Of a DNA stretch of 38,774 bases, positions 24,744 through 30,872 are shown one piece after another (positions within the stretch are counted from its first letter, which is position 1; every line of letters starts with the position of its first letter). A program made the position numbers and the translations under genes. The notes beneath the pieces are model-generated. The model did not search any database, was not told where the DNA came from, and worked only from the letters and a program-made list of their open reading frames with translations. The DNA is from Sphingobacteriales bacterium (GTDB lineage Bacteria > Bacteroidota > Bacteroidia > UKL13-3), in NCBI GenBank assembly GCA_021298155.1, contig JAJTEN010000036.1, positions 1 through 38,774 of the forward strand. The letters are read 5' to 3'.

Positions 24744-25661
24744 TTACTTTTCTACACCCCAATTTTCTAATTCTGTTGCACTCCATAAATCTGGAAAATA
24801 GATGCGTTTCTGGAATGCGGGGTGTAAGTATTTTTCCCAATGACTGCCTCCAGTAGCAGTTTTAGTTTCACCTTTTGATTTTAGGTAGGTTCGGGCCGTT
24901 TCTAAATGCACCATTGGCCATTCAATATTATACTTTCTATCAAAATTTCTAAGTGCCTCAATGAACGATTTTTGTTCTGTTTCATTTAATTTAGGTAGAA
25001 TTAATTTGTACCTATTGTTCAAATTATGTGTCTTCATGGTGTGAGCAGATTGAACAAATAAGGGTAAATATTTCTGCTCAAAATCACTTAGTGTTTTATT
25101 TTTCTTGTTGGTTTCTCTGTTAAAACCTGCTTCTTGCCAATATAACATAGAAAACTTCTCTTCTATTGTGGTTTCTGTTGTTACGCGGTTTCTTAAATAG
25201 GCTGGAATTAATAAATCAATATCGGTACACATAAGTTCTATGAACCTAAATTGTGCCGACTGAAATCCGCTTGCAGGAGATAAGCTTAGTCTGAATTGAT
25301 TGTAATCTTCATAACTCATTCCTTGATTCATAATGCTGAAAGAACTGCATAATAAGTCGGTATACCTAACCATACGATTGAGTTTTTCAACAAATAAACT
25401 TGGCTGCATTTCGCTCAAACACAATTGGTCTAATTCATGGCGAATGAGTTTTAAAACCAATTCTGTTATCTGATGGTACACAATAAATATGGTTTCATCT
25501 TTGAAATCTGTTCGCGGATTTTGAAGCGTAAGTAGGGTGTCAACCATCACATATTCCCAATAATTTATGGCTCTATTGTGTTTTAACCCTTTTAAATAAT
25601 TTTCCGGATCTTGTCCGTTTGCAATTAACTTGTCTTTTATTTCTTGTAAAATATTTTCCAT
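24744..25661 (-). CDS. kynA: Tryptophan 2,3-dioxygenase
   Basis: This heme enzyme opens the indole ring of L-tryptophan to N-formylkynurenine, the first kynurenine pathway step. The 305-residue protein has family motifs: YWEYVMVDTLLTLQ near the start, FIVYHQITELVLKLIRHELD with the substrate-side His, and the C-terminal MVHLETARTYLKSKGETK plus ATGGSHWEKYL, matching the heme-proximal His region and the GTGGS loop. Later kynurenine genes are not in the window. The neighbour upstream is a YdeI-like gene, 27 nt away. Confidence 0.88.
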   Translation of the reverse strand: MENILQEIKDKLIANGQDPENYLKGLKHNRAINYWEYVMVDTLLTLQNPRTDFKDETIFIVYHQITELVLKLIRHELDQLCLSEMQPSLFVEKLNRMVRYTDLLCSSFSIMNQGMSYEDYNQFRLSLSPASGFQSAQFRFIELMCTDIDLLIPAYLRNRVTTETTIEEKFSMLYWQEAGFNRETNKKNKTLSDFEQKYLPLFVQSAHTMKTHNLNNRYKLILPKLNETEQKSFIEALRNFDRKYNIEWPMVHLETARTYLKSKGETKTATGGSHWEKYLHPAFQKRIYFPDLWSATELENWGVEK

Positions 25662-26474: not shown

Positions 26475-26744
26475 ATGACAGATCAAGAAATAGACCGTGT
26501 AATAGAAATGGCTTGGGAAGATAGAACTCCATTTGAGGCTATTTATATGCAATTTAATTTAAAAGAATCGGATGTAATTGCATTAATGCGCAAAAGCTTG
26601 AAACGATCTAGCTTTAATCGCTGGCGCAAACGGGTAAATTCTGGTGTGAGTCAGAAACACCTGCACAAAAGAAATCCTGAAATTAGTAGATTCAAATGTA
26701 CTTTACAGCGAAGTATTACCATGAACAAAATTAGTAAACGGTAA
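26475..26744 (+). CDS. TIGR03643/DUF2805-type small conserved protein
   Basis: The 89-residue basic protein carries the family pattern EIDRVIEMAWEDRTPFEAI, then ESDVIALMRKSLK, SSFNRWRKRV and the late RFKC. The middle looks like a helix-turn-helix that may bind nucleic acid, but the function is unknown. In other genomes members often sit near photolyase/cryptochrome genes, as here. Its TAA overlaps the next ATG (TAATG at 26742-26746), so the next gene is probably translated by coupling. I take it as the first gene of the photolyase operon. Confidence 0.85.
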   Translation: MTDQEIDRVIEMAWEDRTPFEAIYMQFNLKESDVIALMRKSLKRSSFNRWRKRVNSGVSQKHLHKRNPEISRFKCTLQRSITMNKISKR

Positions 26745-27769
26745 TGCAGCCTAAGTTTGGCCCGAAGCTACAAGATATTTGGGAAAGGGTAGATGCTATT
26801 TCACCTGCAGATTATGCAAGAAGTAGAAATTATTTGAATGGCGCAGTTACCTATCTTTCTCCCTATGTCTTGCTCAAAGAGTTGGCGTGGCGAGATTATT
26901 TTCAACGTGTGGCACAGCATAAAAGCATGGATGAAGAGATTAAACAAGCTCAAGGAAAATGTACTAATTATCTAATACCACAAGCTGTTATTGAGGCCAA
27001 TACTGGAATTGAGGCTATTGATACAGCTATAAAAAATTTACAGACAACTGGATACCTGCACAATCATTTGCGAATGTATATCGCGTCTATTTGTTGTAAT
27101 GTGGCGCAATCACACTGGAAGATGCCTTCGAAATGGATGTATTACTATTTGTTAGATGCCGATTTTGCCAGTAATACCTGCAGTTGGCAATGGGTAGCTG
27201 GCGCTAATAGCAGTAAATTGTATTATGCCAATCAAGAAAATATAAATAAGTATACGCATAGCCAGCAACAAGATACTTTTCTTAATACAAGTTATGAGAG
27301 GCTAGCGGCTATGCCTGTTCCCAAAGAGTTGTGTACATTAACTTCTTTTCAAGCCAAAACAGTTTTACCTGAACCGAGTGAAATATTCATAAATAAAGAG
27401 CTCCCAACCCTTGTTTATACTATATATAACCTCGATCCAATTTGGCATGCAACGGGTAATTATAACCGCATTTTATTGCTTGAACCAAGTCATTTTGATA
27501 AATATCCAATGGCTAATTTGTCGATGGATTTTATGTTTCAATTGGCACATCAAATTCCGGGAGTGCAAGTGTTTGTTGGTAGTTTCGCCCAGCTAAAAGT
27601 ATTGGCTGAACCCACTAAAATAATTTATAAAGAACATCCACTGCAGATGGGATTTTCAGGAATTCAAGAGCATCGCGATTGGATGGTAGCTGGTGTGGCC
27701 GACTATTTCCCATCGTTTTTTGCTTTCTGGAAGCAGATGAGTAAATCACTCTATACACACTATAAATAG
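26744..27769 (+). CDS. Photolyase-like FAD-domain protein without N-terminal antenna domain
   Basis: The 341-residue protein starts directly in the photolyase FAD-binding helical domain: RNYLNGAVTYLSPYV (28-42), ELAWRDYFQRV (46-56), TGYLHNHLRM (102-111) and DADFASNTCSWQWVAG (138-153). The Asn four residues before the first Trp, next to flavin N5 in E. coli photolyase, and the two Trp are kept. The canonical N-terminal alpha/beta antenna domain is absent. Between LSPYV and ELAW only 3 residues remain, where about 32 are usual (as in the neighbour at 27773). After residue 220 an alpha/beta-like segment follows (NRILLLEPSHFDKYP, VQVFVGSFAQL), which may replace the missing domain. It is coupled to both neighbours. 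Whether it binds FAD is uncertain. Confidence 0.8.
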   Translation: MQPKFGPKLQDIWERVDAISPADYARSRNYLNGAVTYLSPYVLLKELAWRDYFQRVAQHKSMDEEIKQAQGKCTNYLIPQAVIEANTGIEAIDTAIKNLQTTGYLHNHLRMYIASICCNVAQSHWKMPSKWMYYYLLDADFASNTCSWQWVAGANSSKLYYANQENINKYTHSQQQDTFLNTSYERLAAMPVPKELCTLTSFQAKTVLPEPSEIFINKELPTLVYTIYNLDPIWHATGNYNRILLLEPSHFDKYPMANLSMDFMFQLAHQIPGVQVFVGSFAQLKVLAEPTKIIYKEHPLQMGFSGIQEHRDWMVAGVADYFPSFFAFWKQMSKSLYTHYK

Positions 27770-27772
27770 GGT

Positions 27773-29260
27773 ATGAGTAAGGAAGAAATAACTGTTGTTT
27801 GGTTTAAACGCGACTTACGCTTAACTGATCATGAGCCTTTAAAATTGGCCCAACAGATGAATCTTCCTATTTTGCTCTTGTATTGTTTTGAGCCAAGTAT
27901 AATGCGTTATCATGATTCGGATGTGAGGCATTGGCGATTTATTTATGAATCTATTCAAGCGATGCAAGAACAATTGAATGTTTATCAAGCCAAACTCTAT
28001 TATTTTCACCAAGAAGCTCCAGCAGTATTTGAGATATTGCAAGAGCAATATTGCATAAGATATGTTTTTTCTCATCAGGAAATTGGCACACAAATTACCT
28101 ATAACAGAGATATTCGCCTGGCTAATTGGTTTGGTTCGAACCAAACGATTTGGAAAGAATCTCGCTTAAATGGGGTTATTAGGAAGTTAAAATCTCGGCA
28201 AAACTGGCAGAAACGTTGGGAACAAACCATGTTATCTCCAATTATAAACATAGATTTAGCTGTAAGTAATTTTGTGCAATTACCTGTAGAATGGTATACT
28301 GCACGTTTTGGTTCAGCCCTAGATAAATCAATTACAGAGAGACACACTATGTTTCAACAAGGAGGTGAAAGTACGGCTTGGCGCTACCTGAATAGCTTTT
28401 TAAGAGAGCGGCACCTTAACTATTCGAAACATATTTCTAAACCATTTTGGAGCAGAACCGGCTGTGGAAGAATTTCACCTTATTTGGCTTATGGTAATTT
28501 GAGTATGCGCATGGTTTACCAGGAAACAATTAAACAGTATCAGGTTTCTAAAAACAAACGCGCACTATCCAATTTTATGTCGCGTTTACATTGGCATTGC
28601 CATTTTATGCAAAAGTTTGAAGACGAAATGCGCATGGAATTTGAGCCAGTAAATAGAGCTTATGAAGCAATGAATAAGCCCAAAAACCCTCAATATATTC
28701 AGGCTTTTGAGCAGGCATGTACAGGAATTCCAATTATAGATGCAAATATTAAATGTTTGGTTCAAACCGGATATATTAACTTTAGAATGCGGGCCATGTT
28801 GGTTTCGTTTTTTGTGTTTAATCTTTGGCAAGATTGGCGCGATTTACATTTCCTAGCGCGTAATTTTTTAGACTATGAGCCTGGCATTCACTACCCTCAA
28901 ATACAAATGCAAGCAGGTTTAACCGGTGTAAATACCATCCGAATGTATAACCCTGTTAAAAATAGTTATTGCCATGATGAAGAAGGATTGTTCATTAGAA
29001 AATGGCTGCCCGTGCTGGCTAACTTACCAACATCACTTATTCATGAGCCTTGGAAAATGACACAAATGGATCAACGTTTTTATGGCGTAGAAATTGGTAA
29101 AGATTATCCAAAGCCCATCATAGAAATGGAGGAGAGCAGAAAGGCTGCTAGCGAAGTAATGTATGGTTTAAAAAAGTCGGATTCTGCGCGTGCAGAAGGC
29201 AAACGTATATTGGCAAAACATACTTCTAATATGGGTTTTAAGCAGGGAAAAAAAGCATGA
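27773..29260 (+). CDS. Divergent cryptochrome/photolyase family protein
   Basis: The 495-residue protein has the full two-domain layout. The N-terminal alpha/beta antenna domain ([16 protein letters not shown], residues 8-23) runs to about 130, then the FAD domain with [14 protein letters not shown] (197-210), [34 protein letters not shown] and [13 protein letters not shown]. The usual ELxWREF motif is RLHWHCHF here, and the usual Asn-Asn-Gly-Gly-Trp-Gln-Trp stretch reads [13 protein letters not shown] (373-385), so the conserved Asn and both Trp are missing. This suggests altered flavin chemistry rather than standard DNA repair. A basic tail follows. It starts 3 nt after the previous gene, and its TGA overlaps the next ATG. 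Confidence 0.85.
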
Positions 29261-29400
29261 AGAAAGCGCATTTGCCCAATAAGATTTGCGTTACTTGTGG
29301 TAGACCATTTACATGGCGCAAGAAATGGGAGAAGGTATGGAATGAGGTGAAATATTGTAGTAAAAAATGTAGTTCGAACCGAAATAAAGTGAAAGCATGA
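29257..29400 (+). CDS. DUF2256 small zinc-ribbon-like protein
   Basis: This 47-residue, very basic protein starts at ATG 29257 inside the previous stop (ATGA overlap), and its own TGA (29398-29400) overlaps the next gene's ATG in the same way. It matches DUF2256: [16 protein letters not shown] then [12 protein letters not shown], giving a CxxC plus CxxxC zinc site and many Lys/Arg, as in small nucleic-acid-binding proteins. DUF2256 genes often sit next to photolyase or cryptochrome genes. It is easily missed because of its size, but the two overlaps and the conserved pattern make it convincing. Confidence 0.88.
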
Positions 29401-30872
29401 TAGGACTGATATTTCCGCATCAATTATTTGAGCATAGTAAACTCATTGATGCTTGCAAAAAGATATATGTAATAGAAGAATATTTATTCTTTAAGCAATA
29501 TGCTTTTCATAAACAAAAGTTGGCGTTTCATAGGGCTAGTATGCAGTTTTATGCCGCCTATTTATTGGCCCAAAATAGGGAAGTTATTTATATAGATGCC
29601 CAGCATTTAGAGAGTGATATTAGGCATTTTGTAGCGGCCAGAGCGCAAGAACAGTGTGGAGAATTATGTTTCATAGATCCTACCGATAATTATTTAGCGA
29701 GACGCTTAAATAGCGCTGCTCAAAAGCACCATATTACATTGGTTCAGCATGATTCTCCTTTATTTATGAATACGCAGGAGGAGAACCAAGCTTTTTTTGC
29801 AGGCAAGAAAAGGATGTTTCAAACAGATTTTTACATGCAGCAACGCAAAAAAGGTAAAATTTTGCTCGATGGCGTGGGCAAGCCTTTGGGCGGCAAATGG
29901 TCTTTTGACGAAGAAAATCGTTTAAAATATCCCAAAGATAAAACGCCGCCAATAACTCATTTTTTAGCGCCCAATGCCTTTTACCAAGAAGCCATAAATT
30001 ATGTAAACACGCATTTTGCCAAAAACCCAGGTTACCTGCAATTAAATACATTTTACCCTTGTACATTTGAAGAAAGTAAGCAATGGTTGCAAGATTTTTT
30101 GGTGCAAAGATTTGCAGAATTTGGTCCTTACGAAGACTCTCTTGTTTCCAAAGAATTGGTTTTAAATCATAGTTTAATCAGTCCGCTTTTAAATGCAGGT
30201 TTATTGTCTGTAGATAAAGTGATAGCCACAACTATAAAATTTGCAGAAGCGCACGCGGTGCCCCTTAATTCATTGGAAGGTTTTGTGCGTCAAATAATTG
30301 GGTGGAGGGAGTTTATTAGAGCTGTTTATGAGCAGGTTGGAACCATAGAGCGAACCAAAAATTATTGGGGATTTACCCGAAAAATCCCTGCTTCTTTTTA
30401 CACGGGTACCACGGGCATTGAACCCATAGATAATTCCATAAAAAAAGTACTAAACCATGGTTATGCGCACCACATAGAACGCTTAATGGTATTGGGTAAC
30501 TTTATGTTGTTATGTGAGTTCGATCCAGATGAGGTATATAGGTGGTTTATGGAGATGTTTATAGACGCATATGATTGGGTAATGGTGCCCAATGTATATG
30601 GAATGAGTCAGTTTGCCGATGGCGGCTTAATGGCTACAAAACCGTATATAAGCGGAAGCAATTACTTGATGAAAATGGGCGATTATAAAAAGGGTGAATG
30701 GCAAACTATTTGGGATGGATTGTTCTGGCAATTTATGGATAAACAAAGAGCCTTTTTCCTTCAAAATCCACGCCTCGGCATGCTTGTTAGAACCTTTGAT
30801 AAAATGGCTCCAGAAAAGCGCGTACAGCATATCCTTGCGGCACAAAAATATTTGGATAGCCTGGCAGACTAA
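29397..30872 (+). CDS. FeS-BCP-type (DPRP) photolyase-like protein lacking the iron-sulfur cysteines
   Basis: The 491-residue protein is of the FeS-BCP/(6-4)-photolyase-like group. An N-terminal DPRP alpha/beta domain has [19 protein letters not shown] and [15 protein letters not shown], and the FAD domain has [30 protein letters not shown] and [20 protein letters not shown]. In classical members three late cysteines (a CxxC plus one more) join a fourth to hold a 4Fe-4S cluster. Here [17 protein letters not shown] (419-435) and everything after it contain no Cys. An iron-sulfur-free branch of this group is known, to my memory, in marine bacteria. It is the operon's last gene, ATGA-coupled to DUF2256 and overlapping the START gene by 4 nt. 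Confidence 0.88.

Follow-up and report, generated by a model that had tools for sequence, protein, structure and literature searches.

Photolyases of inverted topology have been proposed to lie near the root of the photolyase/cryptochrome family. In NewPHL, the inverted photolyase presented by Emmerich in 2020, the C-terminal domain is said to seal the FAD site. In PMC13274461, NewPHL (Emmerich 2020) is equated with SPL (Xu 2021) as an enzyme of inverted topology that repairs dimers in single-stranded DNA, and Dinoroseobacter shibae and Methylobacterium mesophilicum are named as organisms carrying NewPHL. Marine Synechococcus/Cyanobium also possess the reverse order, with Phr4 and Phr5 encoded by two adjacent genes and Phr6 by one gene, while Synechococcus Phr7 is composed of an FAD domain plus a Z-domain (PMC9426592). 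The reversed layout is already known from work of 2020-2022, and the gene described here belongs to a compact and large Bacteroidota branch of this known kind.

The gene lies in a window of 38,774 nucleotides, the whole stretch of DNA that was analysed. Its 341-residue product is very probably a photolyase of inverted topology, of the NewPHL or short photolyase-like kind, whose C-terminal segment is a shortened version of the photolyase Rossmann-like domain. The features of the locus are listed below.

24744-25661, minus strand: tryptophan 2,3-dioxygenase-like gene near the photolyase cluster (PF03301, E 2.5e-26).
26475-26744, plus strand: DUF2805 / TIGR03643 gene, 89 aa, the first gene of the cluster (Pfam E 1.1e-32, NCBIfam E 1.1e-31).
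26744-27769, plus strand: probable inverted-order photolyase, 341 aa, ATG start, with the FAD domain N-terminal and an alpha/beta domain C-terminal.
26866-26872, plus strand: junction of a 78-bp in-frame deletion, corresponding approximately to residues 43-68 of ortholog L031 (DNA alignment).
26873-27274, plus strand: Pfam-recognised part of the FAD-binding catalytic domain, residues 44-177 (PF03441, E 9e-23).
27404-27766, plus strand: C-terminal alpha/beta domain, residues 221-341, the probable counterpart of the photolyase N-terminal domain (AlphaFold2, VIA-align, hhalign).
27716-27763, plus strand: terminal helix with an SFF..WK motif, residues 325-340 (DSSP of the model).
27773-29260, plus strand: DASH-like photolyase of conventional order, 495 aa (PF00875 at 7-106, PF03441 at 268-463).
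29397-30872, plus strand: DPRP photolyase of conventional order, 491 aa (PF04244 E 1.1e-50, PF03441 E 1.3e-6).

The stop codon of the DUF2805 gene overlaps the ATG of the 341-residue photolyase by one base (TAATG), and three bases separate the open reading frame of the latter from the DASH-like photolyase gene downstream. The genome encodes four PF03441 proteins, namely the three of the cluster and one of conventional length on another contig. The DPRP neighbour at 29397 belongs to the prokaryotic 6-4 photolyase family (FeS-BCP). An earlier note on this DNA, made from the sequence, had read the 341-residue protein as beginning directly in the FAD domain, and a Pfam search bears this out: the single domain match is FAD_binding_7 (PF03441) at residues 44-177 with an E value of 9e-23, and no PF00875 or PF04244 antenna domain was found ahead of it.

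Between LSPY(V) and LLKELAW the window copy is missing 26 residues that are present in the other 70 of the 71 aligned members; the earlier note makes no mention of this deletion. In the DNA alignment to the ortholog the gap is clean, comprising 78 bp in frame. The deletion removes a helix of the FAD domain, which spans residues 49-58 in the L031 model, as well as 8 of the 121 columns of highest conservation. The family as a whole has a complete FAD-binding helical domain, but the window copy, with these 26 residues missing, does not, and its activity is therefore doubtful. The gap may represent a recent loss, a tolerated loss, or an assembly error. Decay or loss of function of this allele after a recent 78-bp loss, or else an error of assembly, is nearly an even prospect, and is compatible with the family being inverted photolyases. 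Consistent with decay, the gap occurs in only one of 71 members and removes conserved columns, the copy differs at seven more conserved positions, a number equalled but not exceeded by another member of the set, and three other photolyases are encoded in the genome. In contrast, the reading frame is intact over 341 codons, and nonsynonymous divergence (pN) from the ortholog, at 0.176, is on a par with the 0.165 of the neighbouring DASH-like gene. This comparison thus gives no indication of long neglect or of relaxed selection in the window copy.

A scan of bacterial genome contigs identified more than 500 loci encoding relatives of the 341-residue photolyase. The best 80 of these loci come nearly all from Bacteroidota, plus one from Ignavibacteria, and all of them encode chains of 357-388 aa that span the FAD part as well as the C-terminal part, with the FAD-first order in 80 of the 80 inspected. 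In samples of Bacteroidota genomes, the full-length profile matches 17 of 198, and the C-terminal profile matches 18 of 395. One further Bacteroidota member (G206:C2:1293770-1294990; L135, L138) is a single open frame of 414 aa in which the FAD and C-terminal parts match separately, which suggests an insertion at the domain linker.

The neighbourhood of the gene recurs as well. A DUF2805 gene adjoins the inverted photolyase in at least 53 of the 80 loci, sharing its strand in at least 52 and then nearly always lying directly upstream; a DPRP gene is nearby in at least 57, and at least 36 have a DASH-like gene on the strand of the inverted photolyase. These counts are lower bounds, because contig ends cut many of the 80 loci. 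The cluster of three photolyases (inverted, DASH-like and DPRP) in the same orientation is widely recurrent in Bacteroidota, and a photolyase gene cluster is enriched in proteorhodopsin-bearing Flavobacteriia (PMC5932025). Judged from gene order, DUF2805 may have a role in photorepair or in its regulation. A bolder reading, which we consider rather unlikely, is that the Bacteroidota proteins constitute a separate, undescribed inverted subclass, characterised by a 120-residue antenna-derived cap that domain libraries fail to recognise and by an operon shared with two conventional photolyases, and that the window copy exemplifies how a working enzyme can lose an FAD helix.

The segment that follows approximately residue 220 is strongly conserved among the 71 aligned relatives, with the positions of Y, N, W, R, L, P, F, KEHP and SFF invariant or almost so. 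AlphaFold2 modelled the intact ortholog L031, which is 72% identical to the window protein, with a pLDDT of 95.9 and a pTM of 0.92, and modelled the C-terminal 136 residues of the window protein alone with a pLDDT of 92.6. The predicted elements follow one another as two strands, two helices, a strand, a helix, a strand, a short strand and a long helix, in agreement with the strand-helix-strand pattern that the earlier note had read from the letters, and the segment is, in these models, a Rossmann-like domain. When VIA-align was applied to the 1000 best Foldseek chains for the C-terminal model, ranks 1-6 were all occupied by photolyase/cryptochrome N-terminal domains (Z 6.2-6.9), with residues 1-130 of the Caulobacter 6-4 photolyase at the top (Z 6.9, rmsd 2.6, 96 residues). 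The resemblance to antenna domains that the note had proposed is thus found at the level of predicted structure, and a fold unrelated to the Rossmann-like antenna domain was not found, though the next match after the photolyases, a universal stress protein, is close at Z 6.0. These model-based Z values are not decisive alone, with 6.9 lying below 8 and within 1 of 6.0.

Conceivably, the C-terminal domain could instead have been recruited, after loss of the N-terminal antenna, from an unrelated Rossmann-like domain within the same broad fold group, of the universal stress protein or nucleotidyltransferase type. Besides the near tie in VIA-align Z, such an origin would fit the outcome of Foldseek with the C-terminal model, which gave no match under E 0.001, had phosphopantetheine adenylyltransferases as its top rows and included universal stress proteins, and it would fit the Pfam search of the 71 C-terminal domains, which returned no consistent family. 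A sequence search of the PDB with the C-terminal profile gave nothing meaningful, and nearly all rows from VIA-align of the full model cover the FAD domain only.

Profile-profile comparison of the C-terminal part alone argues against such a recruit. Specifically, hhalign of the C-terminal alignment gave a P of 0.00087 against the N-domain of the DASH-like neighbours, 0.009 against class I N-domains and 0.017 against DPRP N-domains, while 13 unrelated control families from the same loci gave P values of 0.011 to 0.83. With a broader C-terminal alignment the DASH-like N-domains gave a P of 0.001, their score being reached by none of 200 column shuffles, and the score of the class I N-domains was reached by three of 200; the added members left the test no sharper (Neff 3.3 vs 2.9). 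The register covers the photolyase domain from strand 2 to strand 4, placing RILLLEPSHF..Y on strand 2 and VQVFVGSFAQL on strand 3, not far from the reading in the earlier note. Photolyase N-domains are the best profile match, above controls and shuffles. The likeness to the DPRP neighbour that the note had quoted is weak: hhalign does align the register at NRILLLEPSHF, but the P of 0.017 is no better than that of the best control (0.011), and the N-domain of the DASH-like neighbour matches better (0.00087). Taken together, the Rossmann-like fold, the structural ranking and the profile preference for photolyase N-domains indicate that the domain order is reversed.

A tblastn search of plasmids also recovered FAD-first proteins from Alphaproteobacteria (388-410 aa) and from Deinococcus. 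On three Deinococcus plasmids (L139-L141) the fused chain is 456-472 aa long, and its C-terminal domain begins in a photolyase-like manner (AVVWVHGDRLSPTNEAL). On the plasmid of Deinococcus sp. QL22 (L112:1069-2360) the FAD part (257 aa) and the photolyase part (173 aa) are encoded by genes overlapping by 4 bp, and the 173-aa protein matches PF00875 with an E of 2.3e-4, its score of 21.6 bits falling short of the curated cut-off (26.6). The split form of QL22 and the fused form of the three plasmids make a natural pair, like Synechococcus Phr4/5 and Phr6. The four Deinococcus C-terminal or downstream domains match class I N-domains in hhalign with a P of 3e-7 and 93% probability. By eye, the C-terminal domains of Deinococcus QL22 and of the alphaproteobacterial proteins end in an FF motif resembling that of the SFF..WK helix, with basic residues after it. 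A direct profile link from the Bacteroidota C-terminal domain was not significant to its Deinococcus counterpart (P 0.05-0.06) or to its alphaproteobacterial counterpart (P 0.3).

In a tree of FAD domains computed without the long-branched DPRP group, a branch supported at 100/100 sets the inverted proteins of Bacteroidota, Alphaproteobacteria and Deinococcus apart from the rest, with Ruegeria, Peteryoungia and other alphaproteobacterial proteins standing in for reference NewPHL sequences; with the DPRP group included, the support for unity of the inverted group falls to 82/33. The inverted FAD domains are separate from those of class I and DASH. Since the FAD-first relatives carry a clear photolyase domain at the same place, and the profile tests favour the photolyase N-domains, we regard an unrelated recruit as unlikely.

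The FAD domain itself is that of a photolyase: residues 1-217 of L031 align to residues 171-414 of Thermus photolyase with a VIA-align Z of 15.9. Active-site positions were mapped through an alignment to Anacystis (A. nidulans) photolyase, and their conservation was read from the alignment of 71 relatives. The positions of the dimer contacts and of the tryptophan electron chain are those of class I photolyases. The list of FAD residues was that of PMC9426592. The FAD residues Y228, L243, S244, R287, N349, D380, D382 and N386 are kept, as are E283, W286, N349, M353 and W392, which contact the dimer; all are invariant or more than 90% conserved, while three FAD contacts are altered (T240 to V, W280 to F/L, and A385 to S). 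Of the electron-chain tryptophans, W390 and W367 are kept, and the third is not conserved. The Fe-S cysteine pattern C..C...C was found in none of the 80 Bacteroidota members.

The conserved contacts suggest, as far as residues can, repair of cyclobutane dimers. A cryptochrome, acting as a light sensor to control the operon and not in repair, would fit the linkage to the small DUF2805 protein, which has a weak helix-turn-helix match (E 0.029), but the dimer contacts of CPD photolyase are conserved and the operon partners are photolyases, making a sensor very unlikely. The earlier note had left the choice between a swapped order and a half-protein: the fold, the profiles and the FAD-first relatives favour the swapped order, and a half-photolyase needing a separate antenna subunit, for which the overlapping domain genes on one Deinococcus plasmid and likewise Synechococcus Phr4/Phr5 (PMC9426592) offer precedents, is scarcely credible, as each member inspected has the alpha/beta domain on the same polypeptide as the FAD domain and AlphaFold2 models the full-length protein as a unit (pTM 0.92).

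For an inverted photolyase, we propose that the N-terminal helical domain would bind FAD and the lesion, and that the C-terminal domain would be a shortened form of the Rossmann-like domain that leads ordinary photolyases, probably closing the FAD cavity as a cap. The job of the intact family would most likely be blue-light repair of cyclobutane pyrimidine dimers, in which excited FADH- would donate an electron to a dimer held by the conserved Glu, Trp, Asn, Met and Trp. The residues point to probable specificity for such dimers rather than for 6-4 lesions, and, by analogy with characterised alphaproteobacterial relatives, the intact family may prefer single-stranded DNA. With it, the UV-repair operon found in many Bacteroidota would comprise a third photolyase. 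Furthermore, several hundred Bacteroidota genes, together with the fused and split Deinococcus relatives, provide sequence material for asking if a single reversal, through fusion of two neighbouring genes, gave rise to the order.

Compared with known systems, the Bacteroidota proteins share the FAD fold and the dimer-contact residues with class I CPD photolyases and DASH cryptochromes, which in contrast carry in front a PF00875 antenna domain that the 341-residue protein lacks. With the DPRP (FeS-BCP) neighbour at 29397, the protein shares an operon and a weak local similarity in the strand 2-helix stretch, whereas DPRP has an N-terminal PF04244, absent from the 341-residue protein, and the conventional order. 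The reverse domain order is common to the Bacteroidota proteins and to Synechococcus Phr4 plus Phr5 and Phr6, but the Synechococcus proteins, like SPL of the Fe-S type, have four Fe-S cysteines, a pattern (C..C...C) that 0 of 80 Bacteroidota members possess. The Deinococcus FAD-first proteins (L112, L139-L141) have the same order and fall in the same FAD-domain group, yet differ in a still recognisable PF00875, in the presence of the four cysteines of the Fe-S pattern and, in QL22, in being encoded by two overlapping genes. Relative to NewPHL/SPL, the Bacteroidota proteins are shorter, at approximately 365 aa, where the alphaproteobacterial proteins analysed have 388-410 aa, and the profile link between the C-terminal domains has a P of 0.3; they nevertheless share with NewPHL/SPL an FAD domain placed first, a Rossmann-like (Z) domain placed last and the lack of an N-terminal antenna domain, and their FAD domains group with the alphaproteobacterial proteins of the same layout.
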